A stretch of DNA of 64,000 nucleotides from Haliea alexandrii (lineage in GTDB: Bacteria > Pseudomonadota > Gammaproteobacteria > Pseudomonadales > Halieaceae): assembly GCF_003719295.1 (NCBI RefSeq), contig NZ_RFLW01000006.1:1-64000 (forward strand), written 5' to 3'. Positions 8,697 through 30,770 of this stretch are shown piece after piece. The notes under the pieces were generated by a model. It had not been told where the DNA came from. It did not search any database and worked only from the letters and a program-made list of their open reading frames with translations. The position numbers were made by a program, and so were the translations under genes. Each line of letters opens with the position of its first letter. Within the stretch, counting starts at the first letter, position 1.

Positions 8697-9170
8697 GTGA
8701 ACTCCATTGTCCATTGATTAAAAACCGCGCAATTATGTCGATTTGAATTCAATTTATCTACCGGTAGCACTGAGATATACAAGGAACTAGTACCGTTCGG
8801 AACTCAATGCCGTTGGAAGACGGTGACGACATGCCCAATTAGCGCGCACGGATACTTTGGTTTCATAGTCCTACTGGAACCTGACTCAGACCTGACTATA
8901 TACCTGCTGTAGCAACGCATCAGCGACAGCGAGCGCGACCGCAAACGTGTTACAGCGCTTAATACTGGTGAGTTACTCGCGCTCATCCTCGGGAAGCAGG
9001 CCGAGAGCGGAACTCGCTCGATACGATTGGGTCTATCTAGGCTGGGATTTGTACTTGCGCGAGCTTATCGTCATATCACAAGAATGGTTGATAGCTCATG
9101 GGGTAGGTCCAATCTCGCAAATCAAGTTATTAACCAGATCGCTCGGGCAATATCAGGTGACGAAAGCGCA
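8697..9170. other. Intergenic stretch with no supported gene
   Basis: The divergent region between the AlgP-like and AP2-domain genes holds no credible gene. An open frame continues upstream of the AP2 start at 9171, but that part does not resemble the protein family. It should contain the promoters of both divergent genes; I cannot place them with confidence. Confidence 0.45.
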
Positions 9171-9689
9171 ATGCAGACAAGACGCAAGAATAACAATACC
9201 AGTAATGCGATGTACGGCGTTTCCAGGATGGATTCGGATCGTTTCTATACCCACGGTTGGCGTGTAAAGCTGGTTCGCCGCGGGGTGGTTTACGTTAAGA
9301 ACTTTCCGGACAAGCGCTGGGGAGGCAAACGCAAAGCCCTGGTACAGGCGAAAGCATATCGGGATGCCTTGCTATCGGAACTGCCCGAACCACTGACGCG
9401 GCGTGAGTTCTGTACCGCCCTGCGCAGCAACAATCGCAGTGGCATCAGCGGCGTCTACCGGTACGCCAAGAAGTACACGCTGACGAACGGTAAAGTCATC
9501 GCGTCGTGGTACTGGGAGGCCACCTGGCCGATTGGGAGGAGCCAGCAAGGCCACCAGGCCTTCTCGGTCAATGAATTCGGTGAAAGGAAGGCCAAAGCAC
9601 TCGCGATCGCTGCCCGGGAAGAAGCCCTTGATGATCTCGACGGTTACTACTGGGCCTCACAGCGAGGCGCCCCGAGTCAATCAGGATGA
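9171..9689 (+). CDS. Tandem AP2-domain putative DNA-binding protein (172 aa)
   Basis: Two AP2-like units are visible: the first at about residues 15-68 (GVSRM...WRVKLVRRG...KNFPDKRWGGKRKAL), the second at about 92-157 (ISGVYR...WYWEATWP...FSVNEFGERKAKALAIA). AP2 domains are three-stranded DNA-binding folds, best known from plants and from homing endonucleases and phage proteins in bacteria. No nuclease motif is visible here, so it may be a stand-alone DNA-binding protein. The ATG at 9171 has AGGTGA ten bases upstream. Its 3' end overlaps by 13 bases the convergent PepSY fragment. Confidence 0.7.
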   Translation: MQTRRKNNNTSNAMYGVSRMDSDRFYTHGWRVKLVRRGVVYVKNFPDKRWGGKRKALVQAKAYRDALLSELPEPLTRREFCTALRSNNRSGISGVYRYAKKYTLTNGKVIASWYWEATWPIGRSQQGHQAFSVNEFGERKAKALAIAAREEALDDLDGYYWASQRGAPSQSG

Positions 9690-10183
9690 TACCAGCGTCG
9701 TTTCCGCCTGTGCAGCCAGCGGGTGTAGTAATGACTGCCGCCGGTAAAGGCGAGCCAGGCCAGAGCGATGCCGGCGATCAGGATCAGAAGGCGATAGCCA
9801 AAATGCATGCCGTAGCCAGAGTGCAGAGGGTACAGCTGATTGACCAGGCGTCGTGTCGCACTGGACTCATCGGAGCGCTCACTGATAACCAACTCGCCGG
9901 TACTGTTGTTGATGATCACTGAGGTGCGTCCGTTGAGGTGCCATTCTCCGGGTAACCGAAAACGCACTTTGGTATGGACCACGCCCGCTTCTTCGAAAGT
10001 ACGGATATAGGTCGGCCAGCCGTCCGGTACTGCTGTCTGGGCCAGACGGTAATCTCGGGCGATAGCTAGTATTTCAGTGGCTTGAGCGCTGAAATCCGAC
10101 GCCATCTGGGTCGAGGTCGGTACCGACGGCAGCAGGTGTGAGTTGGCGTGGAAAACTGTCCGGTGGGTCAATTTTGGATGCAA
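9677..10183 (-). pseudogene. PepSY-associated membrane protein, 5'-truncated
   Basis: The C-terminal part of a PepSY-TM protein is recognisable: the periplasmic PepSY segment (LPGEWHLNGRTSVIINNSTG), then a transmembrane helix (RLLILIAGIALAWLAFTGG) and a basic cytoplasmic tail (RWLHRRKRR). Family members usually have 350-500 residues and three to five helices. Only about 150 residues remain, and the first 20 of the open frame do not fit the family. No matching N-terminal part is found upstream. It is most likely the remnant of a gene lost when the DNA to its right was inserted. Confidence 0.6.
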
Positions 10184-10538: not shown

Positions 10539-13500
10539 CTAAGCAGAAAATCCAATATCACGGTAACTACGCAGCAATCTGTCAATTTCGATGATGCAGT
10601 TTCTTAGCGTATTGAGTGATGATTCGGGGTCATGGCCGATTTCTCTCTTAGATTCTCTATCCCAATTCTTCAGCAGTATTTGTTGAATACTCTGTAAATT
10701 TGGGTACACGGCTCTAACAAACTCAACTTTACCTCTACAGCGCCTAACGAAAGAAAGAATGGAGCGAATTACATGAGTACGATTGACGCCGATATTTTGA
10801 TCGACCAACCTCTCCATGAACTCTGCATTTTCGGTAGTAGGTGTAGCAATCTTGCCGAACAACTGGAGAAAGGATTTTTGTACTTCATTGGGGACCTTGT
10901 GATCGACTATATGAGCATAAATTTGACGAATGGCGGCGTCCTCTATTTTTGGTGTGGCCAGATCTATAGCGGCGGAAAGATTAAGGATCTTGCTTATCCG
11001 TGCTCTTCCCCACCCTCGCTCAGGTTTAGATAGTTCCGATACGAATTCGCTTACTAAGAAATCCGATGCGGATATATTTGTATCAGCGTGGTGCGCGAGA
11101 CTTTCGATACATGCCTCATATTCACTGTATTTAGATCCTTTTTCGCAACCTATCGCCTGTTCGATTAAATGGACAATAACATCCTGAAGTGGTGGTACCT
11201 GACCTAATGCAAGAGTTGCCGCAATCCGTACATTACTATTGGGCTTCCGACTAAGATTCCGAATTGAATTTACATCATCAAGCCTTAGTAGTTTATGAAT
11301 ATTTGCATTTCTTGAGATGCCATTTAGCGCTTCAGTGACAATATCTGGCGCAGACTCCTTCAATACTATTTCTATTAGCAACTCATAGGCGCGAACAAAA
11401 TTATGTTCAGAAAGACCAATCAATCTTATGGCTCTAATTCTCTCAACGTTATCAGAGGAGTGAAGCCAACCTTCCAGTTCATCGTAGTCTAGCGTTAGAG
11501 ATAACCTAGCACCTTGATTATGCCTAGAGCTCAGAATAAGAGCGTTCAGGGCTTTGTCAAGCAGCTCTAGATCGATTCCCGAGGGAGTTCTGTAAGCAGA
11601 TGACCTAACAATAACTCTGGCGGCGTTATGAGCATATGGTCCATCACCAAAAACTGCCTCCCTAAGCTCTAGGGGGAACTGGGCGCCTAGTGGAATATTC
11701 AACTCAAGAGATTGGAAGGCAGCATGCCGCTCCTCGGCTGTCCCCCTTGTTATCGCCCTGCTCATTATTTTTTGTGTGGCATTATTCACGAACGCTGTGG
11801 ACCGTCCTGCTGATCGGATGATGGCTGCACGCACAGTGGGCTCTTCTCGTTCACAGGCCTTCTCTAATGCATCCACCACGTCAGAGAAGCTCTGTAATGA
11901 AGATCCAAGAAACCCAGCAACTTCAATTGTGGCAGCCGCAACTTGCGGAACTTCATGTTTTAGCCCTTCTGACAGAGCTTGTGTAATTGAAGTGCTGCGA
12001 GTAGTTTCAAGAAGATTACCAAGCGGCTTGGCCAGCTCTTCGCGTGCTGATGATGAAATTTTTGCAGCCCCATTGATAAGATATTCGAGAACCCACGAAG
12101 CAAGCAAAGACTGGGCTTCTACTGGCGGGACATCAGACTCCGACGCGCACTCTATAGCTAGAATTAATAGTTTACCAGTTACCTTTTCAGCCACTTCAGG
12201 CAGCGACTTTAGCTCCCGAACTACATCAGTAACTTCAGCTCGATCTGCATATATTCCAGCTGCAAGTACAATAACCTCTCTCCATCTATTTTCTAGAGCA
12301 AGTTGATGAAGATTAGTAAGGAAGTTGTTGTCAACCAACTTAATAGCTGCGTAAAACTCGAGGAAAGAGTGGTGCATAAAAGTTAGGACGTCATCTTCTC
12401 CGCCTTCTTCGCTACGTTGGTGAAAACGCACTAAACCAGTTGAATTGGAGATTGTCTGTAGAAAGATATCGATGGCAGCTGAGTTTTCATTTTCATAAAA
12501 ACTTGAAGCAGAATTGCTCATTAAAAGCTGGTGGATTTCAGCACGAGATGGAATTTCATTAATCATTCCCTCATAAATTGCCAGAGCGATGATTCCAAGC
12601 TCACGTCTGAGATCTGCTTCCGAAAGCATCTCACGTTCAATTTGACGTTGTCGTACTGAAACAAGAGTTCTGATAGCTTGGGCATAGACAATGTGCCTTT
12701 TGGCTACCATCGGTCCACTATTTGCGTAGATAAGAACTAAAAGAGTAAGAAGAAGAGGATTACGACCTAGTCGACGTATACCAGGAACTTCATTACAGTC
12801 ACTGACCAATCGATCGACAGTCTGTCGTTGGGCATCAGACAGCTCGACGGTACCATCATTGGAAATCGAGGTAGCAAGTATTCTCTCCGCTAGCAGTCTC
12901 ATCTCATCGTCAGTGAGCCCTCGTAAACTAAGGCGTGCAAGATGGGAAGGAACATCAACCGATTGAACCGCTGCTGGCCTCGAAGTGAGTACGAATCTAT
13001 TACCTAACGGAGCGAACTGATCAACTAGGCTAGAGATTTCGCTAACTATTTCACTACGTTCTTCTATAGTAGCGATTTCGTCTAGTCCATCGAAAAAGAA
13101 AGCAGCTTGTCCAACGGTAACAAGTTGTTCCAGATCTGCGGTACTTATTTGTAGTCGAGTGGTACGAGCATACTCTGCGCATACTGATAAAAGATCTGAC
13201 TGATGACGCTTTAGCCTGCTTACTTCAGCTAGCGGCAGAAAAACTGGAGTGTGTTGTGAGTACCAGGAAATCTTCTCTGTAGTTGTGTCGCAGTAATTAA
13301 GAATTGAATTACGGACGAAAAGACTTTTACCCGATCCTGGGTCGCCTTCTACTAGTATGTTTCCATACAGCTCATACATCTCAGCAGCCGCACCAGATTC
13401 GGCCGTCCCGGATATCCCGTATTGCCCGGTTAACGCCTGTTGTAATTGGGAGCGCTGGTCGGACGGGAGATCAAGAGCGTTTACAGCATCAGTAATTGCA

Positions 13501-15368
13501 AGTGAGATCGATTCTTGCTCGGTATCCGATCGAACAGAATCTGCAGCTGTAGCCACATAGATTTGCTTGACAGATTTGTTTGGTATTTGTAACCCAATAG
13601 CGGCCAAACCTGGATACTGAATATCGTCATGAATATCAAAACACCGCTTTTTATACTCAGCAAGGTTAAATGGTTCTTGCTGAGGTTCTCTATTCTGCTC
13701 TGAAGTTTTATCTTCAGTATCGTAAGTAGCAGTGTATTGAAGATGCATATACCTTGGGCGTGATTGACGAAGTTCATACACTATTTCGGATGCGCTAGGT
13801 TCTAACGTGCCCTGCAGATCAGACACTGTAAACCATGTTTTGCTCATCTGATCTGTTATTAATAATAATATTCCTTTTGAACAGAAAAGCGGTCGTATTG
13901 ATATTCTTTGGCCAAAATTTTCTGAGATACGGCCGATACTATTGGAAAGATATGATTTGGAAAGCCTTTGGTTTATCTCTTTCCCGTCAAAAATACGGAT
14001 TGGTTTTCTATTTCGTTCAAGCTGGTCCGCGAGAGTTCGAGCATCTTCTGAGACCGATCCGAGGGTAAGAATTATTGCTTGGTCAAGTGACTGCGTATCT
14101 ATGGTAGTATTGGTTTCTTCCACAGACTTTTTAGACAGGGTATCTCCAACTGCAGAGATCGTTCGAACCAAGTACTTTCCGGATTTCGCTGTAATAATAA
14201 ACTGAACATAATTTCTGCCTCTGGCATCTCTGGGCAGGGTAGAAATCGTATCTATTCCATGGATTAGACTTAGTTTTGATATTATTTCCTTCCAAATATC
14301 TTCCTCATTTTGAGAAAGTAGAATAGCTTCCTCTAACGACCAGCGTTGCTCGACGGCCAGATTGTAATTTCTTTGGCTTTCAGCCTGGGAGCCGGCAGAA
14401 GCTGGTGTTCTAGAAATAGCCAGCTTGTAACCTGAATTTAGGATACTGCTATTTGTTTTGAATGAAGGAGGGACTTGCTTCTCAGGAATCCACCGGCCAT
14501 TCTCACAGTCCCAAACATACGGGGATACATGCAAGTAGTCATCCAAGGCGCAAATAGCAAAGCTATTCCGATAGAATGGCGTTGGTTCTGCGTTCATCGG
14601 TGAAACGTAAGAAGCACCAAACCCAAGCGAAATTAAACCCGTTGCTTCAAATTCTGCTTCTATTTCATGTTCATGTCCATGAACATAAAGCGCTGAGCAA
14701 TCCATAAGCGCTGAAATGAAAGGTTTTTGAGACCGAGGAGTGAACCATGATATAGGGTAATGCCCCAGCACAAGAACCTGGTTGTGTGTCCCTACATCCC
14801 TGCAAAGATAAGTAAGTGGGTGGTAAGGTGCGGGTGTGTTGTGTCTATCTGACTGTTCAAAGTCTGAAAAATAGCATGTGTTCAGCGCTATCAGTTTTAT
14901 ATCCGGGTGGTTTGGAAGGTCAATTACTCCGGCTGGATGCTGAGTAAAATCTGGTGTTAGTATTGCGTTTCTTTCCGTGAAATCGATGTAAGCTTGCAGG
15001 TTTTGAAGGCGCATCGCCCGGATTTCTCGACCTCTTTCGTCAAAGTTGAAAAACTTTTCCTGCCTTGATGATCCTATCGAGTTCCAACTGATGGGGGTGC
15101 CAAGGGAGCAGTCTATATCATGATTTCCAGGTACAGATACCACGATCGCTGTTTTTACATTGTCTATTTTTCGAAGCGGCGTTAGGAAGTTATTTTCGAA
15201 AGACTCATACTCGGAAATTTTTCCTGAGTAAGAGATGTCGCCCGTAATCACTACTAGGTCAAATTGAACGTCAGCTTGGGCTATTGCGGTAAGCAATGAA
15301 CTTGCCGCGACTGTTTGCTGCTCATTATCATTTCCCCAATGAAGGTCTGTCAGATGTAGCCAGCGCAA
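10539..15368 (-). CDS. Phosphoesterase-REase-like-NACHT-HEAT protein (1609 aa), candidate defence NTPase
   Basis: Domains in order: a calcineurin-like metallophosphoesterase (residues 1 to about 300) with its full metal set, DLHWG (8-12), GD (43-44), GNHD (81-84), GHYP (202-205) and HGHEHE (230-235). Next, about 355-470, a segment patterned like an Mrr-type restriction-endonuclease fold (LTLGSVSEDARTLADQ...IFDGKEI) with unclear catalytic residues. Then a NACHT STAND NTPase with Walker A GDPGSGKS (675-682), Walker B FFFDGLDE (757-764) and a sensor TSRP (795-798). From about 1090 to the end are HEAT-like helical repeats. This is the plan of bacterial NLR-type immune proteins: N-terminal effector, NTPase, C-terminal sensor. 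The gene stands alone and is more A+T-rich than its neighbours. Antiphage function is inference. Confidence 0.9.
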   Translation of the reverse strand: MRWLHLTDLHWGNDNEQQTVAASSLLTAIAQADVQFDLVVITGDISYSGKISEYESFENNFLTPLRKIDNVKTAIVVSVPGNHDIDCSLGTPISWNSIGSSRQEKFFNFDERGREIRAMRLQNLQAYIDFTERNAILTPDFTQHPAGVIDLPNHPDIKLIALNTCYFSDFEQSDRHNTPAPYHPLTYLCRDVGTHNQVLVLGHYPISWFTPRSQKPFISALMDCSALYVHGHEHEIEAEFEATGLISLGFGASYVSPMNAEPTPFYRNSFAICALDDYLHVSPYVWDCENGRWIPEKQVPPSFKTNSSILNSGYKLAISRTPASAGSQAESQRNYNLAVEQRWSLEEAILLSQNEEDIWKEIISKLSLIHGIDTISTLPRDARGRNYVQFIITAKSGKYLVRTISAVGDTLSKKSVEETNTTIDTQSLDQAIILTLGSVSEDARTLADQLERNRKPIRIFDGKEINQRLSKSYLSNSIGRISENFGQRISIRPLFCSKGILLLITDQMSKTWFTVSDLQGTLEPSASEIVYELRQSRPRYMHLQYTATYDTEDKTSEQNREPQQEPFNLAEYKKRCFDIHDDIQYPGLAAIGLQIPNKSVKQIYVATAADSVRSDTEQESISLAITDAVNALDLPSDQRSQLQQALTGQYGISGTAESGAAAEMYELYGNILVEGDPGSGKSLFVRNSILNYCDTTTEKISWYSQHTPVFLPLAEVSRLKRHQSDLLSVCAEYARTTRLQISTADLEQLVTVGQAAFFFDGLDEIATIEERSEIVSEISSLVDQFAPLGNRFVLTSRPAAVQSVDVPSHLARLSLRGLTDDEMRLLAERILATSISNDGTVELSDAQRQTVDRLVSDCNEVPGIRRLGRNPLLLTLLVLIYANSGPMVAKRHIVYAQAIRTLVSVRQRQIEREMLSEADLRRELGIIALAIYEGMINEIPSRAEIHQLLMSNSASSFYENENSAAIDIFLQTISNSTGLVRFHQRSEEGGEDDVLTFMHHSFLEFYAAIKLVDNNFLTNLHQLALENRWREVIVLAAGIYADRAEVTDVVRELKSLPEVAEKVTGKLLILAIECASESDVPPVEAQSLLASWVLEYLINGAAKISSSAREELAKPLGNLLETTRSTSITQALSEGLKHEVPQVAAATIEVAGFLGSSLQSFSDVVDALEKACEREEPTVRAAIIRSAGRSTAFVNNATQKIMSRAITRGTAEERHAAFQSLELNIPLGAQFPLELREAVFGDGPYAHNAARVIVRSSAYRTPSGIDLELLDKALNALILSSRHNQGARLSLTLDYDELEGWLHSSDNVERIRAIRLIGLSEHNFVRAYELLIEIVLKESAPDIVTEALNGISRNANIHKLLRLDDVNSIRNLSRKPNSNVRIAATLALGQVPPLQDVIVHLIEQAIGCEKGSKYSEYEACIESLAHHADTNISASDFLVSEFVSELSKPERGWGRARISKILNLSAAIDLATPKIEDAAIRQIYAHIVDHKVPNEVQKSFLQLFGKIATPTTENAEFMERLVDQNIGVNRTHVIRSILSFVRRCRGKVEFVRAVYPNLQSIQQILLKNWDRESKREIGHDPESSLNTLRNCIIEIDRLLRSYRDIGFSA

Positions 15369-15612
15369 GTGATGTTCTCCTTCACAGCGATTGTATTATG
15401 AGTGTAGTTCGGCTTCTTTTTAATAAAATTAATCGATACGTAGTTTATGGTACTAGCGGTGTCGTGTCTCGCTCCGGGGCATTCCTGTTGCTGGCGCTTC
15501 AAAAATTATGATCAGGAAATGACCAATGCCTGTTGAGGTTAGCTATCTCCGTTAGAAGCGCGGGATGGCAGGTCTTCTGGACTTCAGGCACGTCTTCGCG
15601 GAATGTTGTTCT

Positions 15613-15965
15613 TTATCTATCATAACTTAATTTGTTCCAAGCATCGTGCCAGCGATGATCTTCGGCATGCTGGTAAATCGCCGTTGTCTCCACCTTCTCA
15701 TGCCGGGCTGAAGCTTGCAGGTACTTGAGGTTAACCCCGGCATCGTCGGCGTGGGTGACGGCGGTGTGGCGGAACCAGTGCGTCGAGGCTTTGCGCAGCT
15801 TGGCCGCTGAGACCGGGGCCGTTTCCTCGATGACATCGGCCGCAGCAGTGACCGTCTCCTTGACGATCCGGTACACCATATTGGCGCTAATACCCGCAGT
15901 GCCTTTCAGACTTCGCAGCATCGGACTCAGATCATCCGGCTCGGGTATGCCGGTAAGCCCCAGGA
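15613..15965 (-). pseudogene. Tyrosine recombinase, C-terminal fragment
   Basis: About 117 residues of a tyrosine recombinase catalytic domain remain, including HWFR (H68, R71 of the open frame), H94 and the nucleophile Y103 in TTAIYQH. The first catalytic Arg, the Lys and the whole N-terminal half are missing. The frame runs on into the left inverted repeat of the adjacent transposon, which supplies an ATG at 15981, but those codons belong to the transposon end. The fragment is a distant relative of the complete recombinase at 16049. It may be the integrase of the element that brought in the NACHT gene, cut by the transposon. No other half is found to the right of the transposon. Confidence 0.75.
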
Positions 15966-16094
15966 AAGGCTCCCAGAACATAAGCGGACGTGATTCTCCG
16001 CTCAGTGGGTTTATGTAGTTGATTTCCCTGTATTTTTTCTCGCCAGTTTTACAGGGAGTGAATTCGCTTCTTCTTCGCTGATTTGTGCCGCTCT
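15966..16094. repeat. Left terminal inverted repeat (129 bp)
   Basis: It aligns without gaps to the reverse complement of 21371-21499 with 9 mismatches by my reading. The inner third (16049-16094) is the 3' end of the recombinase gene, including its stop codon. Confidence 0.85.
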
Positions 16095-17299
16095 TTGAGC
16101 TCTATATCAATGTACTTGTCGGTAATGGCGCTGGAGCTATGGCCTGCATCGTCTCTCACATGCTCTCTGGGCCTGGTTTTGACGTCTTCTGAGATACCTG
16201 TATGGCGCAGCCAATGCACGGTAGCACCCATCAGTGATTCGGCCTCCTCTGTTTGTTGCTGAGCAACCAGGCTCTGAATCGCCTTGTCGAAACAGTCTTG
16301 TACTATAGACCGTATGTGTGTGGTATTGGCCATAGGCCCTTGGCCCCGATGAACCGGAAGTAGTGGCGAGTCATCAGCTGGCGTGGGTAGTACCGATAAC
16401 CCCCGAAACTTCCGCCAGCGTTTTAGCGCAGCCAGCATTGTATCGCTAACCGCTATTTGCCGCTCTTTATTGCCTTTTCCTACCGTGGTAAACCACCACA
16501 ATCCATCGTTATCCTTGTGAAAGTCATTCATCGTGGGTGTCCAGCGGTCGCTAGCCGCCAACTCTGATATCCGTAAATACATACTGTAAAGCGCGGATAA
16601 CATGAAGAGCGTTCGCTCATGAGATCCCGGGTTGTCTGCGGCCATCTGCTCAGCGGTAGTGATGACCACTTGCCACTGAAGTGGACTCAATCGACGTACT
16701 CTAGTTTGGCCCTGACGCTTCTGCACGAACTTACTTTTTTGCCGAATCAAGGCCACCGGGTTGCTGTAGACATATTCCTCTAACAGCAGATATTGGTAAA
16801 AACTACTGCAGATAGCCATCAGCTGTTTGATGCTGTTATTTGAGGCGAAATAGTCCTTTTTAGAGGGCGCTTCGCCCTTTTTGTGGGCAGATTTCGAGAC
16901 CGTTGCCACGAAGGGTCGCCACTCGGGGTTTGGTCGGCGCTCACTTTCACTGTCAATAAAACGTGGCGCTTTCTTAACGCCGATCCAGGCGGCTGGTGGA
17001 CGCTGACTAAACCGAATAAATTTCTCGATATCCTCTCGCTTCAGTCCATCCAGTGTGGTCAGGGCAATGTGCCAGGTCCATTGCAGCAAGTTTTCGACTT
17101 CACGACGGTAACTATTAAACGTTGCGGCGCTACCGGTGTACTGTTGGAGGAATTGCACAGCAATGGTGAAATCGCGACTCTGCGCTTCCGACAGGTCGTC
17201 GGGCGGACTCGCGTTATCGATATACTCCATGGCATCCAGGTATGCTAGTGGAGGCCGTCTCATGCTAGCGGTTGTCATCGGCTGCTCACGCTGATACAT
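16049..17299 (-). CDS. Transposon tyrosine recombinase (416 aa)
   Basis: A complete tyrosine recombinase: R243 (YLRISEL), K275 (GKGNK), H362-x-x-R365 (HWLRHTG), H387 (DAGHSSS) and nucleophile Y396 (DKYID). Family members cut and join DNA at short specific sites; next to a Tn3-type transposase the likely job is resolving cointegrates. The gene is divergent from tnpA with a 74-bp A+T-rich spacer that probably holds the recombination site and both promoters. Its last 15 codons lie inside the left inverted repeat. Later in-frame ATGs at 17278 and 17263 are possible starts; none has a clear ribosome-binding site. Confidence 0.88.
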   Translation of the reverse strand: MYQREQPMTTASMRRPPLAYLDAMEYIDNASPPDDLSEAQSRDFTIAVQFLQQYTGSAATFNSYRREVENLLQWTWHIALTTLDGLKREDIEKFIRFSQRPPAAWIGVKKAPRFIDSESERRPNPEWRPFVATVSKSAHKKGEAPSKKDYFASNNSIKQLMAICSSFYQYLLLEEYVYSNPVALIRQKSKFVQKRQGQTRVRRLSPLQWQVVITTAEQMAADNPGSHERTLFMLSALYSMYLRISELAASDRWTPTMNDFHKDNDGLWWFTTVGKGNKERQIAVSDTMLAALKRWRKFRGLSVLPTPADDSPLLPVHRGQGPMANTTHIRSIVQDCFDKAIQSLVAQQQTEEAESLMGATVHWLRHTGISEDVKTRPREHVRDDAGHSSSAITDKYIDIELKERHKSAKKKRIHSL

Positions 17300-17373
17300 T
17301 TACCGTATTAATAATAGTTATCACAGTATATAGATAATAATAGGCAAGGCAATATGTATTCAGGAGTCCCTAT
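17300..17373. promoter_or_regulatory. A+T-rich spacer, candidate resolution site and divergent promoters
   Basis: The 74 bases between recombinase and transposase are strongly A+T-rich and contain partly symmetrical blocks (TATTAATAATA near 17308 and ATAATAATAGG near 17334). This is where the internal resolution site and the divergent promoters sit in related elements. The exact core site cannot be fixed from sequence alone. Confidence 0.4.
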
Positions 17374-20300
17374 ATGACGCGATTGGTCTTTCTGTCGCCC
17401 ACTGAAAAACGGAAATTCGACTCCCCTCCCGTCTTTACAAAAGAACAACGTCACGCCTACTTTGTCGTGACTGAGGATATTCGACGAACTCTGAGTCAGC
17501 TACGCACAACGACAAATAAAGTCGGCTTCCTTTTGCAGCTCGGGTATTTCCGGTACTGCGGGAAATTCTTTGTGCCATCTGTGTATCGCCGTAGGGATAT
17601 CCAATACGTGAAGCGACTTCTCAGCGTCACAGATGAATTCAATTTCGATCGCTATCCTTCAGCCCGAATTTTACAGCATAGATCACGCATTCTGACACTG
17701 CTGGATTGGACACCTTTCGATGAGTCCAATGCTACATTGATTGCTGAACGCATCCAATTGTTGGCCCAGCAGCAATTGAAGCCAGATCAGGTATTTGTTG
17801 CTGCAATTGATTTTTGCTGGAAGCAACGCATCGAAATACCGACCTACCATCAGTTATCCACAGTGATTACGGACAGCTTCAATATCGTGGAATCCAGCCT
17901 GCTAAACACCCTGTCGTCAGAATTGCGCGAGGATGAAAAATCCTCGCTAGACGTATTGCTAGCAAATCCGAAGAATCACTGGCTACCTTTGCTCGGGCAA
18001 ATCAAACAGGTTAACCAGTCATTGCGCGCCAAGGATATTCAGCAAAATGTCAACGCATCCCGGACGCTCAGAGATCACTTCGAACAGTTTCGATCAATTT
18101 TTGACGAGTTAAATTTGAACCAACAAGCCACAGAGTACTACGCTACCTGGGTACAGAAGGCAACGCTGACACAAGTGAAGCAGTTTCCCAATCCACAGAA
18201 ACGTCACCTCCATTTACTGTCCTTCATCAAGCACCAGTACTATTTCCGCCAAGATGTCTTGATGGATATTTTCCTAAAAAGTGTCCGCACCGCTACGAAT
18301 GGCGTTAATAAGAAGCTTGCTCAAAAAGAGCAAAAAACGCAGTCAGAGCGAAAGACTGCTATCCAAACAATCAACACGTCCCATAGAAATTCACGCCATC
18401 TACTGGACGAAATTACGCGTATTGTCCGATGCAAGGACCAATCAGATTCTGAGAGAATGGAAAAGATTGAACGTCTGATCGATGACTATGAGGCTCTGCA
18501 GGGAGATATCAAGACAGAGAAATTACAATTCTATGAACAACTACTCGATCAACACACAGAGGGTCAGCACTATTACGATACCCTGGAAAACCAATCTCTG
18601 CGCCTCCAGCGCAAGGTGTCCTCAGTGCTTAAGAATTTGGTATTCGATAAGGCGTCATCGGAGGAGCCGTTATTTGCAGCCATGACACATTTTCAAGTGA
18701 CGGATGGTAATGTCGGACACTCACCACCTCTGGACTTCCTGCCAGAAAAGGAACAAGACATTGTCGCAGGCGATACCACATTCCGCACATCGCTGTACAA
18801 AATACTACTTTTTCAATCCGTTGCGGATGCGGTGCGCGCGGGCAAGCTTAACCTCCAGTATTCATACCGTTATCGCGCTATACAGGACTACCTGATTCCT
18901 ACTGCACGCTGGCGGAAAGAAAGGGATCGCTTGCTGACATTGGCAGGCCTACAAAAATTCGCAGATGGCGCAAGCTACCTTGCGGAACTCAAAACAACAC
19001 TAGAAAGCACATACCAGGCTGTCAATGGACGCTTTGGTGAGGGGAATAACACGTACCTATCTGTTGACGACTCTGGCTATGCCAAGGTCAGTACGCCCGG
19101 TACGTCATTTAGTGAAGACGGATATAATGGCACCCTATTGAAGGAGAACGGCATCGTTCCCATTTTGCGCGTTCTTCGGGACATTAACCGAACGAGCGAC
19201 TTCACCCGCTACTTTAAACATCTAAGCCCCAAACACCACAAGCTCAAGCCGAATGTCGAAACGGTTCTGGCTGGTATTATGGGCATGGGCTGTAACATTG
19301 GTATTGATAAACTGTCCCAGATCTCTGTAGGTATCAACGAAAGCACGCTGAAAAACACCGTTAACTGGTGCTTTAGCCTGAAAAATATTCAGGCAGCGAA
19401 CAACGTTATTATTGGCCAGATTGACAAGCTCGCTTTATCCAACGCGTTTCAAAAATATCCGGACCAGCTGCATACCAGCAGTGACGGGCGCAAGGTAAAC
19501 GTTGGAGTAGATTCACTGCATGCAAGTTATTCATTCAAATACTTCGGCAAGGATAAAGGCGTCACGATGTATACTTTCATCGATGAGCGCCATGCCCTGT
19601 TCCACTCAACCGTGATTAGTGCATCCGATAGAGAGGCCGCCTATGTCATTGATGGCTTGATGCAGAATGAAGTCGTCAAGAGTGACATACACTCGACGGA
19701 TACACACGGATTTTCTGAAGCCATATTTACGGCCACGCATATGATAGATACTGCATTTGCCCCACGTTTTAAGAAGATTGGCGAACAGCGGCTGTATGGA
19801 TTCTCCAGCAAATCTACATATCAAAGGCGCGGTTACAGTATTGTGCCGAGTCGCACAATCAACCGGAAACTCATCCTCAAAAACTGGGATGACATCCTCC
19901 GCTTTATGGCTACGATTAAACTGCGCTATTCCAGCGCCTCGCAACTGTTCAAGCGGTTAAGCTCCTATGCGAAAGATCATCCGTTGTACCGGGCATTAAA
20001 GGAGTTCGGACGCATTATAAAATCCCAGTTTATACTGACTTACTATGATGACGTAGAGCTACGTCAGCGTATTGAAAAGCAACTGAATAAAGTGGAATTA
20101 GCCAACAGGTTTTCAGCGGCTGTATTTTTTGCTAACAACCAGGAATTCCAGGTAGGCACCAAGGAGGAACAGGAAATAGCAACGGCCTGTAAAGTGCTCA
20201 TGCAAAATGCCATTGTCCTGTGGAATTACCTGTACCTGTCCCAACGGCTATCATCCACGGCTGATCCCGACGACAGGCAGGACATGCTCGAGGCCATTAC

Positions 20301-20421
20301 CAGTGGTTCGATCATAGCCTGGGCACATGTCAATATGCAGGGGGAATATGATTTTACACGGCCCGCCGCTAATGATGATGTCTTTGATATGGCGAAAATT
20401 CTTGCGCTGAAACTGGGTTGA
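17374..20421 (+). CDS. tnpA: Tn3-family transposase TnpA (1015 aa)
   Basis: A full-length Tn3-family DDE transposase. The N-terminal part is the DNA-binding region (DUF4158 type), the C-terminal half the catalytic Tn3 domain. Two catalytic Asp are placed with fair confidence: D704 in SSDGRK and D776 in STDTHGFSE; the Glu lies further on. The length of about 1000 residues is typical. It mobilises the element by replicative transposition. It shares overall plan but not close sequence with the transposases at 27741 and 59591, so three separate lineages are present. The ATG at 17374 has AGGAG about ten bases upstream. Confidence 0.92.
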   Translation: MTRLVFLSPTEKRKFDSPPVFTKEQRHAYFVVTEDIRRTLSQLRTTTNKVGFLLQLGYFRYCGKFFVPSVYRRRDIQYVKRLLSVTDEFNFDRYPSARILQHRSRILTLLDWTPFDESNATLIAERIQLLAQQQLKPDQVFVAAIDFCWKQRIEIPTYHQLSTVITDSFNIVESSLLNTLSSELREDEKSSLDVLLANPKNHWLPLLGQIKQVNQSLRAKDIQQNVNASRTLRDHFEQFRSIFDELNLNQQATEYYATWVQKATLTQVKQFPNPQKRHLHLLSFIKHQYYFRQDVLMDIFLKSVRTATNGVNKKLAQKEQKTQSERKTAIQTINTSHRNSRHLLDEITRIVRCKDQSDSERMEKIERLIDDYEALQGDIKTEKLQFYEQLLDQHTEGQHYYDTLENQSLRLQRKVSSVLKNLVFDKASSEEPLFAAMTHFQVTDGNVGHSPPLDFLPEKEQDIVAGDTTFRTSLYKILLFQSVADAVRAGKLNLQYSYRYRAIQDYLIPTARWRKERDRLLTLAGLQKFADGASYLAELKTTLESTYQAVNGRFGEGNNTYLSVDDSGYAKVSTPGTSFSEDGYNGTLLKENGIVPILRVLRDINRTSDFTRYFKHLSPKHHKLKPNVETVLAGIMGMGCNIGIDKLSQISVGINESTLKNTVNWCFSLKNIQAANNVIIGQIDKLALSNAFQKYPDQLHTSSDGRKVNVGVDSLHASYSFKYFGKDKGVTMYTFIDERHALFHSTVISASDREAAYVIDGLMQNEVVKSDIHSTDTHGFSEAIFTATHMIDTAFAPRFKKIGEQRLYGFSSKSTYQRRGYSIVPSRTINRKLILKNWDDILRFMATIKLRYSSASQLFKRLSSYAKDHPLYRALKEFGRIIKSQFILTYYDDVELRQRIEKQLNKVELANRFSAAVFFANNQEFQVGTKEEQEIATACKVLMQNAIVLWNYLYLSQRLSSTADPDDRQDMLEAITSGSIIAWAHVNMQGEYDFTRPAANDDVFDMAKILALKLG

Positions 20422-20567
20422 CCTCTGGCTTTGATATAAGGAGAAGGACGAATCCTTTCAAGACAATGAGTTGGTTCCACTGATCAGAAAATCTCATTCA
20501 TTCACCCTCGGCCCCCAGGTCCCAAGGCCGTAAACAAAAGTAAGAAACTGTTTTTGTTGCCTGGAGC

Positions 20568-20583
20568 GTACCATATATGGTAC
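20568..20583. promoter_or_regulatory. Perfect 16-bp palindrome, operator of the toxin-antitoxin pair
   Basis: GTACCATATATGGTAC lies 10 bases upstream of the toxin start codon. Its place and symmetry fit the autoregulatory operator bound by the HTH antitoxin of HigBA-type modules. Confidence 0.65.
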
Positions 20584-20593
20584 ATTCAGCAGA

Positions 20594-20953
20594 ATGATAG
20601 CACCTAAGAAAAAAATAACCGCTGTTTTTTACCAGCTCTCCAGCGGGAAAGAACCTGTTAGAGATTGGTTGCTTGGACTGACCCAAGAAGATCGGCAAAC
20701 AATCGGGCAGGACATTATGGCAGTGGAGTTCGGTTGGCCTTGTGGTGAACCGCTGTGCAAATCCTTATCTGGCTATCCTGGATTGTGGGAGGTCAGAAGT
20801 AATATTAAGAGCGGGATCGCCCGTGTGTTTTTCTATATCGACAATTCAGAGATGATCCTATTGCATGGACTGGTTAAAAAGACCCAGAAAACACCGGACA
20901 GAGATTTAAAGCTCGCTCAGAAGCGGAAGACGGAGTATCAGAAAAATGGCTAA
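20594..20953 (+). CDS. RelE/HigB-type toxin of the Gp49-like family (119 aa)
   Basis: The fold pattern is that of phage-derived Gp49-like HigB toxins: VRDWLLGLTQEDRQTIGQDI near the N-terminus, then LWEVRSNI, ARVFFYI and ILLHGLVKKTQKTP, ending in a basic helix (LAQKRKTEYQK). Related toxins cut mRNA on the ribosome. Toxin precedes antitoxin, and the two genes overlap by 8 bases, the usual HigBA order. As transposon cargo it may stabilise the element. The start at 20594 follows a palindromic operator. Confidence 0.85.
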   Translation: MIAPKKKITAVFYQLSSGKEPVRDWLLGLTQEDRQTIGQDIMAVEFGWPCGEPLCKSLSGYPGLWEVRSNIKSGIARVFFYIDNSEMILLHGLVKKTQKTPDRDLKLAQKRKTEYQKNG

Positions 20954-21239
20954 AAGAAACCCTCGAGCAGGTTCAAGTTTTGACGACTTTCTAAAGGCAG
21001 ATGGTATCTATGAAGATGTTCAAAATGCCGCGATCAAAAAAGTACTGTCTGCAAAACTAGAAGCTGCCATGCTTGACCAAAATATTTCAAAAACCGATAT
21101 GGCTAAACGCTTGAAAACCAGCCGTTCACAGCTTGATAGATTGCTTGATCCAGACAATGAAACTATAACACTTCAAACTGCTAGTAGAGCAGCGGCAGTG
21201 CTTGGGATGACCTTAGAAATCAACCTTAGCCCGATGTAA
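20946..21239 (+). CDS. XRE-family HTH antitoxin (97 aa)
   Basis: A helix-turn-helix of the Cro/CI type is visible (about residues 48-85: MAKRLKTSRSQLDRLLDPDN), followed by the short tail VLGMTLEINLSPM common to antitoxins of the HigA/Gp48-like group. It should neutralise the toxin encoded just upstream and repress the shared promoter. The start overlaps the toxin's last codons (translational coupling). The 130 bases after it, up to the right inverted repeat at 21371, hold no gene. Confidence 0.85.
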   Translation: MAKRNPRAGSSFDDFLKADGIYEDVQNAAIKKVLSAKLEAAMLDQNISKTDMAKRLKTSRSQLDRLLDPDNETITLQTASRAAAVLGMTLEINLSPM

Positions 21240-21370
21240 AGACCTGGGCCAGATTCGGCCAAAAGCATGCCCTATCAAGCGTCTCAGGAAAAGGTGGTGA
21301 GGAATCACTATAAATAAAATAGCTTAAGTGGGGGGAACGCAATATCTCGTCCCCTTATGCCCGCGGACCC

Positions 21371-21499
21371 AGAGCGGCACAAATCAGCGAAAAAGATGCG
21401 AATTCACTCCCTGTAAAAGTGGCGGGAAAAATTACTGGGAAATCAACGGCTTAAACCCACTGAGCGGAGAATCACGTCCGCTTATGTTCTGGGAGCCTT
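21371..21499. repeat. Right terminal inverted repeat (129 bp) with a copy of the recombinase 3' end
   Basis: Reverse-complement match to 15966-16094 (about 93 percent). Read on the plus strand, its inner part encodes ERHKSAKKMRIHSL then a stop, nearly the same as the last residues of the recombinase (ERHKSAKKKRIHSL), with no rest of the gene beside it. Confidence 0.85.
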
Positions 21500-21514
21500 A
21501 TAAGCACTGCACAT

Positions 21515-22615
21515 TCAGCCGGCCTTACCAAGGGATCGCAGAATCCTCTCTGTGTGTTCGCCGGAACGCGGAACATCACCGACCTCCTGCTGGGTCGCAC
21601 TGAATTTCGGCGCAGGAGCTGGCTGCAACAGGCCTTCACCCGCAACAAAGCACTCGCGTGCCCTGATGTGCTCGTCTTCCGCCGCTTCCGGCAGCGACAG
21701 TACTGGTGCGAAACAGGCATCGGTGCCCGACAGCAATTCGCACCAGTGTGACCTGGGTTTACTGGCAAACAGGACCGCCATTTTTTCTCGGGCGGCAGGC
21801 CAGGTCTTCTTGTCGTGCTGGCGGGCGAAGTCAGGATCGTCTTCAAACCCGCACAGGGCAATCAATTCTCGGTAAAAATTGGGTTCAAGGGCCTGTACCG
21901 TAATGTAGCGACCGTCCGAACAGGGGTAGCTGTTGCACCAGGGTGATGCCCCGCCGAAGAACGTTTCACTGGGGGTCTCGCTGATTGCGCCCTCCCCTCG
22001 CAGGCCCGCGATCAGGGTCTGGTTATAGATGGCACCGTCGCAGATGGCTGCGTCGATTACCTGCCCCTCGCCGGTGCGCTGCGCGTGCAGCAGCGCTGCC
22101 AGGATGCCCAATACCAACATATTCGAACCGGAACCGATGTCACCCAGCACTGTGGGCGTGGGATAAGGCGCATCGCCCGGCAGGCCGCCGTAGTGGAGAA
22201 TCCCCGAGATGGCGAGGTAATTCAGGTCGTGTCCAGCCGCATGCGACAGGGGGCCATCCTGCCCCCAGCCGGTCATCCGACCATAGACCAGGGAGGCCTT
22301 TCGCTGATGCACGACCTCTGGCCCCAGCCCCAGCCGCTCCATTACACCGGGGCGAAAGCCCTCGATCAGCACGTCGGACTGCTCCGCCAACTGCAACACA
22401 CTTTCCACCGCTTTCGGGTCTTTCAGGTCCAGAGCTATGGATTGTTTGCCTCGGTTGAAAAAGCCGTTCTGACCCACCTCAGCCGCGTTTTTGTTAGCGG
22501 CTGCGCGTTCAACCAGGATGACTTCCGCCCCCAGATCGGCCAGCATCATACCGGCGATCGGGCAGGGCCCGATACCGGCGATTTCTAAAACTTTGATTCC
22601 GGCTAGCGGTCCCAC
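21515..22615 (-). CDS. CaiB/BaiF CoA-transferase, alpha-methylacyl-CoA racemase-like (366 aa)
   Basis: A class III CoA-transferase family protein. The N-terminus (GIKVLEIAGIGPCPIAGMML) and the stretch GQDGPLSHAAGHDLNYLAIS, which holds the active-site Asp, match the alpha-methylacyl-CoA racemase branch most closely. Racemases of this type convert 2R- to 2S-methylacyl-CoA so that acyl-CoA dehydrogenases can act. It is the last gene of a five-gene minus-strand beta-oxidation operon, which supports that role for branched-chain or isoprenoid/steroid side-chain substrates. The right end of the Tn3 element lies just past its stop codon without damaging it. Confidence 0.85.
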   Translation of the reverse strand: MGPLAGIKVLEIAGIGPCPIAGMMLADLGAEVILVERAAANKNAAEVGQNGFFNRGKQSIALDLKDPKAVESVLQLAEQSDVLIEGFRPGVMERLGLGPEVVHQRKASLVYGRMTGWGQDGPLSHAAGHDLNYLAISGILHYGGLPGDAPYPTPTVLGDIGSGSNMLVLGILAALLHAQRTGEGQVIDAAICDGAIYNQTLIAGLRGEGAISETPSETFFGGASPWCNSYPCSDGRYITVQALEPNFYRELIALCGFEDDPDFARQHDKKTWPAAREKMAVLFASKPRSHWCELLSGTDACFAPVLSLPEAAEDEHIRARECFVAGEGLLQPAPAPKFSATQQEVGDVPRSGEHTERILRSLGKAG

Positions 22616-22646
22616 GTCTCTCTCCTCAAGGCGTTGGTTGTATGGC

Positions 22647-23423
22647 CTACCTGGCCTGCATCACCGTGGCAGCATCCAGGCGCAGGACCCGGCCATTCAT
22701 ATAGCCATTCTCCGCTAGGAAGGCGCAGGCGTGGGCGAACTCATCCACCTCGCCCATGCGCTTGGGCGCCTCGCACATCGCGATCAGTGAGTCCTGCACT
22801 TTCTGGTCCAGCCCCTTCACCAGAGGTGTTCCAAACAGTCCCGGGGCAATTGAATTCACCCGGATACCCAGGGGGCCGAGTTCGCGGGCAGCGGGAATAT
22901 TCATGCCATTCACGCCCGCCTTGGACCCACTGTAGGCGCTCTGGCCGATCTGGCCTTCAAAGGCTGCGCCGGAAGATACGTTCACAATCACACCGCGCTC
23001 ACCGTTCTCGTCCGGCTCGTTCCTGGCCATCTGCTCGGCGCACTTGGCCATCACGTTAAACACGCCCATCAGGTTTACGTTGATCACCGTAGCGTACTTT
23101 GCCAGGCTGCTGGCCTTGCCTTCCCGGTCGAGGATCTTGCAGGGCAGCGGGATACCAGCGGCGTTAACATTCATATGGATCGCGCCGAACTTGTCCATGA
23201 TCGCTGCGATAGCGACATCTATGCTCTCCTCGGAGGTCACATCGGTCTGGCAGAAAATGGCATTTTCCTCGCCCAATTCTTCTACTGTCGCTGTGCCGGC
23301 TGCCTCATTCAGGTCCAGAAGTGCAACCTTTGCACCCTTCTCGCTCACCATATAACGCGCGGTGGCCTGGCCCAGACCCGAGGCGCCGCCGGTGATTACC
23401 AAAACTCTATTTTTCAGCTTCAC
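22647..23423 (-). CDS. Short-chain dehydrogenase, type-2 3-hydroxyacyl-CoA dehydrogenase-like (258 aa)
   Basis: A classical SDR with the nucleotide motif TGGASGLG near the N-terminus, the NAG-type motif as NAAG, catalytic Ser (NVSSGAA) and YSGSK for Tyr-x-x-x-Lys. It resembles HSD10-type 3-hydroxyacyl-CoA dehydrogenases (the segment CQTDVTSEESIDVAIAA and the ending NGRVLRLDAATVM). It would oxidise 3-hydroxyacyl-CoA with NAD+. The start is a GTG at 23423 with GGAGG five bases upstream; a TTG at 23435 would lie on top of that site. It lies in the same operon as the ACAD, thiolase and hydratase. Confidence 0.87.
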   Translation of the reverse strand: MKLKNRVLVITGGASGLGQATARYMVSEKGAKVALLDLNEAAGTATVEELGEENAIFCQTDVTSEESIDVAIAAIMDKFGAIHMNVNAAGIPLPCKILDREGKASSLAKYATVINVNLMGVFNVMAKCAEQMARNEPDENGERGVIVNVSSGAAFEGQIGQSAYSGSKAGVNGMNIPAARELGPLGIRVNSIAPGLFGTPLVKGLDQKVQDSLIAMCEAPKRMGEVDEFAHACAFLAENGYMNGRVLRLDAATVMQAR

Positions 23424-23445
23424 AAAAACCTCCAAATTCCCTTAC

Positions 23446-24591
23446 TTAACTGAACGCATTCAAACCGGTCAGGGCCCGGCTGATTAACAGCTTCTGGATT
23501 TCGGTAGTGCCATCGGGGATCGGCGCGACAATAGCCTCCCGCGCCAGGCGCTCAACGATGAATTCCTTGGTCACACCGTTACCACCGTGAATTTCCAGCG
23601 CGTCGCGTGTCGCGGTCACCGCGATTTCGGTGCCGTACCACTTGGCCATGGCGCACTCCTTGTCCGCGCGCTCGCCGCGCATCACCATATCCATGGCCCG
23701 GTAGGTCAGCAGCCGGGCGGCATCGATCTGGGTGGCCATGGTGGCGAGCTTGTCGGCGATCAGCTGGTGACCGCCAATCAACTTGCCGTGCTGCTTGCGC
23801 TCCTGGGCGTACTTGATGGCCTCGTCCATGGCGCGACGCGCCACGCCAATTCCCCACATTGCCATGTGGCAGCGAGCGTATTCGAATATCTTCAGGGTAT
23901 TTTTGAGCCCGGTACCGCGGCCACCCACCACGTTCTCCACCGGCACCCGCACATCAGACATGAAAACCTGCGAAGTGGACTGACCGTTCAACGCCATCTT
24001 GGGAATTCCCACCGTCTCGTAGCCATGCTCCTCACGGTCGATCAGTATATGGCTGATCTCGTTCTCACCGGTGCGACAGGTACAGATGAACACGTCTGAG
24101 TACTCGCCATTCGTAATCCAGGTCTTTTCGCCATTGATCACCCAGTGGTCGCCATCGAGCACCGCACGCGTCTTGACTGCAGACACGTCTGAACCCACGT
24201 CCGGCTCAGAGATACCCATGGCGATGAACTTGTCGCAGTTGATGATGTCCGCGAGGTAATTCTCCTTGATGGCCTCGGGCGCCAGCTGTCTTAACAGCTC
24301 GGCATTGACCGCGTTGATAAAACCGGGGATGGCGATATCCAGAGAGGTGTAGGCGATCTCCTCAAATACCATCAGGTGGGTGAGCCAGTCCATGCCAAAG
24401 CCGCCCCACTCCTCACCGAATGGCGCCTTGATCAAGCCGAACTCGGTCAGCCCCTGGGTCCACTCCTGCATTTTCTCCCGCGGTATGAAGCCCTCGCCGT
24501 GCTCGCGAAAGGCCGGCTCGATCTCCGAGTCCAGGTATTTGCGCAGATTCTCGATAATCATCTGCTGTTCTTCACTGCGTTGGAAATTCAT
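23446..24591 (-). CDS. Acyl-CoA dehydrogenase (381 aa)
   Basis: A standard FAD-dependent acyl-CoA dehydrogenase: MGISEPDVGSDVSAVKTRA and WVINGEKTWITNG in the middle domain, and the C-terminal signature DALEIHGGNGVTKEFIVERLAREA. The probable catalytic base is a Glu in the final helix region (IPDGTTEIQ). It introduces the alpha-beta double bond into acyl-CoA and passes electrons to ETF. The operon lacks its own CoA ligase, so the substrate must be activated elsewhere. Confidence 0.92.
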   Translation of the reverse strand: MNFQRSEEQQMIIENLRKYLDSEIEPAFREHGEGFIPREKMQEWTQGLTEFGLIKAPFGEEWGGFGMDWLTHLMVFEEIAYTSLDIAIPGFINAVNAELLRQLAPEAIKENYLADIINCDKFIAMGISEPDVGSDVSAVKTRAVLDGDHWVINGEKTWITNGEYSDVFICTCRTGENEISHILIDREEHGYETVGIPKMALNGQSTSQVFMSDVRVPVENVVGGRGTGLKNTLKIFEYARCHMAMWGIGVARRAMDEAIKYAQERKQHGKLIGGHQLIADKLATMATQIDAARLLTYRAMDMVMRGERADKECAMAKWYGTEIAVTATRDALEIHGGNGVTKEFIVERLAREAIVAPIPDGTTEIQKLLISRALTGLNAFS

Positions 24592-24605
24592 CGCTTTGTT
24601 CTCCT

Positions 24606-25847
24606 CTACTGCTTTGCGAGTATGCTTACCGCGGCCGTTGCCTCTTCCAGGCCGACGAGGCCACCACCGTTTTCCTGTACTGCGATCCGCGCGCCTTCAA
24701 CCTGGCGCGCGCCGGCTTCGCCGCGCAGCTGGGTTACCAGCTCAAATATCTGGCCGAGGCCTGTGGCGCCGATGGGGTGCCCTTTTGACTCCAGGCCGCC
24801 GGAGGGATTGACCGGCACCCGGCCGCCGACAGTGAAATCGCCGCGCGCGGCGGCGGGGCCGCCCTCCCCCCAGGGCACCAGGCGCAGGTTTTCCACCTGG
24901 ATGATCTCACCCATGGCAGTCGCGTCGTGCACCTCCACCACGCTCACATCCTCCGGGGAAACGCCGGCCTTCTCGTAGGCTTCTGCGGCCGCCAGCGCAG
25001 TAATGTGCTTTTCATACTCCTCGGCCGTGCGGTTGATACCGGAGCGGAAGACGCAGCTGAGCAGCTTCACCGCCCGGGAGGCATCGCCCCTGAGCCGTTT
25101 GAGGCCCTCGGCACTGCACAGCACCGCCGCGGCAGAGCCGTCGGAGATGGGCGCGCACATGGGCAGGGTCAGGGGGTAAGTGATCGGCGGTGCGGCCATC
25201 ACCTCTTCAACGGTGTAAGGGTTCTGGTACTGGGCCAGGGGATTGTGCACCGAGTGGGTGTGGTTCTTGGCGCAAACCGCGGCGATCTGCTCCTGGGTGG
25301 TGCCGAAGGTCTTCATATGCTGGCGGCAGAAGGCTGCGTACACATCCATGAACATGCTGTAGGGCTTGGGTGACAGGGAGCCTTCCGGCAGGGTAATCCC
25401 CTCCCCCATCTTGAGCAGGTACTCCTTGTTGGCCTCAACCGTGGTCACATCCCAGGCGGAATCGAACGCGGCGAACATCTTCGCCTTGTCCTCGGTTAAC
25501 ATTTTTTCCGTACCCACCGCGATTGCGATATCGCAGCTGCCGGCGCGAATCGCCTGGGCAGCCAGGTAAAGGCCGGACGTGGCGGAAGCGCAGGCGCCTT
25601 CAACATTGAATATAGGGATGCCCTCAAAACCCATGGAGCGCAGGGCCACCTGGCCGGGCACCATATGCTGGTCCTGCAGAAAGCCGATGACACAGGAGGC
25701 GAAGAAGGCCTCGCCCACCTCGTCCTTGTCTACACCCGCATCAGTCAGGGCCCCCTGTACAGCCTCAGCGGTCAGGTCCTTGTAGCTCTTGTCCATATGC
25801 CGACCGAAGGGGGTCATGCCGACGCCGGCGATATATACATCTGTCAT
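24606..25847 (-). CDS. SCP-x-type thiolase (413 aa)
   Basis: A thiolase of the sterol-carrier-protein-x / lipid-transfer branch: start VYIAGVGMTPFGRH, active-site Cys in NVEGACASATSG, His in VVEVHDATAMGEI and the segment GGLESKGHPIGATG. The final cysteine motif of classical thiolases is replaced by ENGGGLVGLEEA, as usual in this branch. Such enzymes cleave 3-ketoacyl-CoA, often branched or sterol side-chain substrates. Position between the ACAD and the hydratase supports a complete beta-oxidation cycle. Confidence 0.88.
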   Translation of the reverse strand: MTDVYIAGVGMTPFGRHMDKSYKDLTAEAVQGALTDAGVDKDEVGEAFFASCVIGFLQDQHMVPGQVALRSMGFEGIPIFNVEGACASATSGLYLAAQAIRAGSCDIAIAVGTEKMLTEDKAKMFAAFDSAWDVTTVEANKEYLLKMGEGITLPEGSLSPKPYSMFMDVYAAFCRQHMKTFGTTQEQIAAVCAKNHTHSVHNPLAQYQNPYTVEEVMAAPPITYPLTLPMCAPISDGSAAAVLCSAEGLKRLRGDASRAVKLLSCVFRSGINRTAEEYEKHITALAAAEAYEKAGVSPEDVSVVEVHDATAMGEIIQVENLRLVPWGEGGPAAARGDFTVGGRVPVNPSGGLESKGHPIGATGLGQIFELVTQLRGEAGARQVEGARIAVQENGGGLVGLEEATAAVSILAKQ

Positions 25848-25861
25848 TTTCTCTACTCCTA

Positions 25862-27665: not shown

Positions 27666-27740
27666 AAGAGGGGATTGCTTTTTCTGAAGTCCATATTTAC
27701 ACCAATTTTGGTTAAGATTTGGCCTTTTTAGGCTAAACGT

Positions 27741-30761: not shown

Positions 30762-30770
30762 TACCCCCTG

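Follow-up and report, generated by a model that had tools for sequence, protein, structure and literature searches.

The 64,000-nucleotide stretch of Haliea alexandrii DNA analysed here (the window) contains a single gene whose intact product is probably an antiphage receptor that joins a calcineurin-type metallophosphoesterase to a NACHT NTPase and a C-terminal array of HEAT repeats. Judged by sequence, this protein and two orthologues, found among the best 80 of 106 matches, form a small phosphoesterase–NACHT subfamily with an extra middle module. The most interesting aspects are that this module is conserved and that one member of the subfamily lies inside a BREX-related operon.

Domain plan and metal centre

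A single minus-strand frame (10539–15368) encodes all 1609 residues, the length given in the preliminary description, without an internal stop. It begins with TTG, preceded by a ribosome-binding-like site (Table 1), and its stop codon occupies 10539–10541; the start of the complete orthologue, L107, is an ATG one codon before the position of this TTG. In Pfam searches with the whole protein, Metallophos (PF00149) reaches 41.2 bits against a gathering score of 21.5, NACHT (PF05729) 37.5 bits against 26.7 in a central position, and HEAT_2 45.4 bits against 27.7 at residues 1130–1222; a scan confined to the C-terminus shows HEAT_2 in three stretches. The Walker A (GDPGSGKS, 675–682) and Walker B (FFFDGLDE, 757–764) motifs are intact. 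All three parts of a tripartite STAND/NLR-like receptor are present, namely an N-terminal effector, a central NACHT and C-terminal superstructure-forming repeats, which bears out the plan first proposed for this gene. The segment-wise profile search suggested at that time returned Metallophos, NACHT and HEAT as anticipated, together with a middle module that had not been named.

The metal set of the phosphoesterase is complete (D8, H10, D44, N82, H83, H203, H232 and H234). These eight residues are kept in both orthologues and are invariant in 25 aligned phosphoesterase proteins, and across a set of 21 domains H232 alone is not fully invariant (at least 90%). One correction concerns the last motif, which had been read as H230 and H232: the motif is G231-H232-E233-H234, so that the ligand pair is H232/H234, and H230 is not invariant among the 25 proteins. 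The other six assignments stand.

Table 1. Features of the receptor gene and its surroundings, and copies of the neighbouring integrase clade
Feature	Position	Strand	Basis or remark
PepSY-like gene, 3' part	9677..10183	-	371 aa in G005; left edge of foreign DNA
C-terminal HEAT-repeat region, residues 1061–1609	10542..12188	-	Pfam
NACHT core, residues 671–831	12876..13358	-	Pfam
Middle module, residues 301–660	13389..14468	-	Pfam, orthologue alignment
Calcineurin-type metallophosphoesterase, residues 1–300 (Pfam 2–235), all metal motifs	14469..15368	-	Pfam, alignments
GGAG ribosome-binding-like site	15377..15380	-	Sequence; 8 nt 5' of TTG
C-terminal remnant of tyrosine integrase	15613..15981	-	82% over 120 aa to intact G005 copy
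Tn3-family element	15966..21499	.	129-nt inverted ends, 93% complementary
Integrase-clade copy with defence gene	G005:C22		CBASS
Integrase-clade copy with defence gene	G902:C31		SIR2-type candidate PDC-S65; PDC-S06 and type I restriction beyond
Integrase-clade copy with defence gene	G841:C16		Caspase-type protein
Integrase-clade copy without defence gene	G028:C5		TniQ-like
Integrase-clade copy without defence gene	G902:C2		Tn3 transposase identical to window 27741–30761
Integrase-clade copy without defence gene	G005:C27		Transposase by eye
Integrase-clade copy without defence gene	G005:C46		Short contig

A subfamily with an extra middle module

Genome contigs were scanned with a three-protein alignment, one genome per species over 84,980 species, and the best 80 of 106 matches resolved into 78 distinct loci, two of which encode the plan of the window protein. 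L107 (OY282378.1), on a chromosome of uncultured Gammaproteobacteria, has 1608 residues and all four parts and is 36% identical to the window protein; L106 (JAPOYW010000639.1) is 35% identical and lacks most of the C-terminus because its contig ends there. The recurrence of the plan in two other genomes, complete in the first and up to the contig end in the second, is more than chance. Identity between L107 and the window protein amounts to 43% over residues 1–300, 31% over 301–600, 45% over 601–1060 and 27% over 1061–1609, the HEAT region being the least conserved part; by this measure the engine is conserved and the presumed sensor evolves faster. In the Pfam search HEAT_2 reaches 23.9 bits in L107, under the cut-off of 27.7, and no HEAT match is reported in the L106 fragment.

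A profile of residues 301–660, run against 4804 open frames from 226 records, matched only the window protein, L106 and L107, apart from three copies of the window gene itself; among 390 genomes of the order it matched one, the window's own. The distance from the GHxH motif to Walker A was compared in 38 distinct phosphoesterase-then-P-loop proteins, a set selected on motif patterns that may include some without a NACHT: it is 433–444 residues in these three and 8–243 in the other 35, the value of 8 looking spurious. This gap points to an additional module, some 250 residues long, as the hallmark of the subfamily. A NACHT protein from another genome (G290, L073) was rejected as an orthologue, having only about 205 residues before its NACHT domain, no phosphoesterase and a contig-cut sequence.

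As to the nature of the module, Pfam places Mrr_cat at residues 371–467 (13968–14258, minus strand) just over the cut-off of 21, with 21.3 bits in the whole protein and 24.3 bits in the piece scanned alone, and NA-iREase1 ("NACHT-associated inactive Restriction Endonuclease 1") at 21.9 bits, under its cut-off of 27; no Mrr match is reported in L106 or L107. Profile comparison with 16 Mrr domains, in which D32, D36, Q52 and K54 are invariant, gave values of 47–53% and aligned only the second half of Mrr, after the QxK motif. By eye, the catalytic D and QxK were not seen in the three aligned members, and the profile alignment stops short of that half. A search of solved structures with the module returned a translation factor as its best match (0.03), which we judged to be chance. 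Part of the module thus appears weakly restriction-endonuclease-like, lacking catalytic residues by eye, and with low confidence we regard the module as nuclease-like and probably dead.

Relation to known systems

The closest published counterpart is DS-8 (Science 2026), described as a phosphoesterase–NACHT antiphage protein in which mutation of either the phosphatase or the NACHT abolishes defence; its substrate is given as unknown, and its authors compare the phosphoesterase with the cGAMP-cleaving enzyme SMPDL3A (PMC13092281). The two proteins share the N-terminal metallophosphatase, homologous over window residues 5–239 (NF053861, 1.1e-22), and the possession of a NACHT. Membership in DS-8 was nevertheless rejected: the window protein scores 79.7 bits against a cut-off of 790, matches only positions 1–233 of the 994-position model, all within the phosphoesterase, and adds some 250 residues before the NACHT and a HEAT C-terminus. 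Since phosphoesterase–NACHT defence has been published as DS-8, the kind is known and the window protein represents a diverged line. In a survey with the DS-8 model, four other genomes (G543, G753, G080 and G627; L093–L096) encode proteins that match positions of about 290–994 at 335–570 bits without the phosphoesterase part, a pattern that suggests effector swapping on a DS-8 body.

Calcineurin–STAND–FGS conflict proteins likewise carry a calcineurin effector N-terminal to a NACHT or other STAND NTPase, but are described as ending in an FGS domain, where the window protein has HEAT repeats in addition to the middle module (PMC8195603). Among 25 phosphoesterase proteins scanned with Pfam, the window protein included, Metallophos occurs in all 25, NACHT in 16 and FGE-sulfatase in 10, and the last, we infer, is the FGS domain of that report; HEAT_2 or Mrr_cat occurs in the window protein only. 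The effector–NACHT–sensor order described for bacterial NACHT proteins (PMC12169576) is that of the window protein and underlies the likeness to Avs and bNACHT groups noted earlier; no Avs or bNACHT model is among its matches in PADLOC (four matches at E up to 1) or NCBIfam. The phosphoesterase part also matches the PADLOC candidate PDC-S60 (2.8e-20, residues 2–243), the best stretch covering positions 2–249 of a 1027-position model. Among the matches listed in a literature search, no title or abstract opening describes the plan of the window protein, a result that falls short of showing its absence from print.

Neighbourhoods of the orthologues

L107 lies in a run of genes on one strand: a DUF499/HmaC-like ATPase, a 430-residue gene, the receptor, a PIN gene, a DUF1156/HmaB-like methylase and an SNF2 helicase that resembles HmaA and DrmD. 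The receptor's ATG overlaps the stop of the preceding gene (ATGA). For that 430-residue gene, searches of PADLOC, Pfam and NCBIfam gave no match, and the PDB gave only a chain at chance level; PglZ-like motifs were seen in it by eye, and we leave it unnamed. The NCBIfam matches of the neighbours are far under the equivalog cut-offs (DUF499, for example, 38.6 of 1200). By these scores the run is related to, but diverged from, the DUF499-centred BREX-related systems (PMC12839542). The main text of that source contains neither "calcineurin" nor "nacht" (0 occurrences each), and its examples of nucleotide-depleting effectors include phosphoesterases. Upstream of L106 is a type I restriction subunit (1.4e-107), with 1.3 kb between its end and the start of L106. 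While L107 thus sits among genes of BREX-related DUF499 systems and PADLOC Hma, the window gene has no such neighbours: neither a DUF499 ATPase, a DUF1156 methylase nor a helicase is among those examined.

Neighbourhood of the window gene

The gene lies 244 bp beyond the remnant of a tyrosine integrase and to the left of a Tn3-family element (transposase, 718.8 bits against 500), so its placement beside integrase remnants and a transposon was correct. The inverted ends at 15966 and 21499 put the gene outside the element, and we therefore rejected the receptor as Tn3 cargo; no 5-bp target duplication was seen by eye at the flanks. Genome G005, of the same genus, has an intact 387-residue copy of the integrase, and its DNA match to the remnant (81.5% over 330 bp) stops at position 15966, the border of the Tn3 element. 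The window neighbours examined comprise a truncated PepSY-like gene, an AP2 gene, integrases, the Tn3 element and a HigBA-like pair; PADLOC gave 0 matches on three of them, and among them no defence gene was identified directly beside the receptor. The Tn3 element itself also carries a 416-residue tyrosine recombinase (16049–17299) and the HigBA-like toxin–antitoxin pair (20594–21239, matches under cut-off).

In G005, four CBASS-type genes (phospholipase, cyclase, E1–E2 and JAB) lie downstream of the integrase on its strand, and AbiEi/AbiEii are found further along the contig. Both flanks of the window locus recur on this contig, 9128–10139 at 94% and 21514–26245 at 99.9% and inverted. The insertion point differs, the PepSY-like gene being whole, other genes lying between and the right flank being inverted. 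Shared flanks, other cargo and the inversion indicate the same neighbourhood with different defence cargo, rearranged, and not a clean pair of occupied and empty sites. We compared seven other copies of the integrase clade (66–67% identical, or the query itself): a defence-type gene adjoins the 3' end in three and is absent there in four (Table 1). The defence setting proposed in the preliminary description is supported by the orthologues, which lie in or beside restriction or BREX-related genes, and by CBASS next to the same integrase in G005; directly beside the window gene no defence gene was identified among the neighbours examined. Its A+T-richness is likewise a local matter: G+C over the gene is 0.43–0.47 against 0.59–0.64 at 1–7 kb and 0.57–0.61 at 21–26 kb, but much of 38–60 kb is also at 0.47–0.53, so that low G+C is not distinctive within the window.

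Distribution

Among 97 related genomes, the gene was found only in the window's own; the 96 others, seven of the same genus among them, gave no match. With this, and with the single match among genomes of the order reported above, the idea of a core-genome housekeeping gene was rejected. Matches occur in 12 of 369 genomes of the class and 35 of 398 of the phylum, counts that include the window's own genome and otherwise reflect single parts; in these surveys, as in that with the DS-8 model, at most two candidates were scored per genome. In BLAST comparisons, 3 of 33 other loci from the class and phylum surveys had phosphoesterase and NACHT in one frame, and after more loci were added the two occurred together in 14 of 28 listed similar frames, which were picked by similarity and so give no population frequency; several Magnetococcales loci seem present in both collections, and the fusion counts are thus not all independent. 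Calcineurin-type effectors had been called rarer than other types. Phosphoesterase–STAND fusions turned up repeatedly, so we dropped the notion of a very rare effector; one such fusion, DS-8, is reported as proved antiphage (PMC13092281). A 639-residue protein at L072:9862–11781 fuses the phosphoesterase to SIR2_2. Single-protein scans of genome contigs, viral contigs and phages, and an orthologue-based scan of viral contigs, gave nothing useful, and a plasmid search gave three weak records, none covering 80%.

Proposed mechanism and alternatives

We consider it likely that the gene encodes an NLR-like receptor that acts as a single protein against phages (or mobile elements) and is cargo next to an island integrase. 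By analogy with other receptors of this type, the HEAT array would hold the protein off and detect an invader-derived molecule, upon which ATP binding at the NACHT would drive oligomerisation and unleash the N-terminal metallophosphoesterase. The enzyme may then hydrolyse a nucleotide pool (more likely) or nucleic acid, so that growth would stop before the phage matures; the middle module could be a decayed nuclease-like or linker domain serving binding or assembly and not cutting. We favour this reading because intact metal and Walker motifs are kept in two orthologues at 35–36% identity, because L107 lies in a DUF499/DUF1156/helicase operon and L106 follows type I restriction, because CBASS follows the same integrase in G005 and the gene is accessory (1 of 97 genomes), and because DS-8, with the same type of effector and a NACHT, needs both for defence (PMC13092281). 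Counted against an antiphage role are the lack of an identified defence gene directly beside the window gene, the four of seven integrase copies that have no defence neighbour, the different insertion point in G005, the sub-cut-off HEAT match in L107 with none reported in the L106 fragment, the small number of members (three) and the low G+C elsewhere in the window.

The same receptor plan might instead deploy an SbcD/Mre11-like nuclease, with phage or host DNA as its target, a minor though real possibility. With the effector profile, SbcD/Mre11-type exonucleases come out on top among solved structures (5.1e-12), practically equalled by the phosphodiesterase Rv0805 (5.3e-12), and this tie near 5e-12 leaves the substrate class undiscriminated by sequence; the whole protein gave nothing useful in that search. 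The sbcd model TIGR00619 gives 3.6e-9 for L107 and 8.7e-4 for the window protein, and nuclease effectors, of the PD-(D/E)XK type, are described for bNACHT25 and bNACHT32 (PMC12169576). The SbcD-type matches, however, mainly cover shared N-terminal motifs (about residues 1–105) and stay under the model's cut-off, and in function the nearest model is DS-8, likened by its authors to SMPDL3A (PMC13092281). It is unlikely, but conceivable, that the protein is an auxiliary module of restriction or BREX-related systems that has here been orphaned from its partners and may be inactive or act alone. The settings of L107 and L106, and the lack of restriction or BREX-related genes among the window neighbours examined, would fit such an origin, yet there are just two known orthologue contexts, the gene in the window is intact and single-protein phosphoesterase–NACHT defence exists in DS-8.

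That studies of bacterial STAND NTPases have dealt mainly with their role as transcriptional regulators (PMC7159879) brings to mind a signalling or transcriptional regulator with no defence role. We hold this to be very improbable, given a complete metal centre, no DNA-binding domain reported by Pfam, a patchy distribution and defence neighbours at both orthologues. Equally remote is the idea that the gene is a functionless relic decaying within mobile DNA: truncation has affected the integrase and the PepSY-like gene next to it, but the receptor frame runs for 1609 codons without stops and all its catalytic motifs are intact.

Returning to the NLR-like receptor, a second, diverged line with the effector type of DS-8 would provide an independent enzyme for finding the DS-8 substrate (PMC13092281), and the window protein may be viewed as a natural domain swap with a new middle module and a HEAT sensor. 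That L107 is part of a BREX-related operon suggests a possible role for NLR-like receptors as auxiliary effectors of modification-based immunity. More speculatively, and in our estimate quite unlikely in this full form, the subfamily may have two recognition parts, a dead nuclease-like domain reading nucleic acid and HEAT repeats reading protein, and could act as a built-in second line for BREX-related or restriction systems, its nucleotide-destroying enzyme firing when restriction is engaged or fails, while also travelling alone on integrase islands.

Some further observations concern the mobile DNA. A divergent, coiled-coil-like neighbour of 344 residues with a weak SMC match accompanies four of the seven integrase-clade copies (L220, L221, L222 and L223), and clade and neighbour together possibly define a defence-carrying type of island; the GMT mobile trio was considered as the island type and not established. 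A second transposon in the window (27572–30864) has 117-nt inverted ends (81%) and a 1006-residue transposase that shares 25% identity with the Tn3 transposase at 17374, and it splits a TonB-receptor-like gene (by eye) that is whole (835 residues) in G005. The right end of the window (59591–63436) holds a Tn3-type transposase fragment, 28% identical over 409 residues to the one at 17374, and an IS21-like pair recognised by eye.
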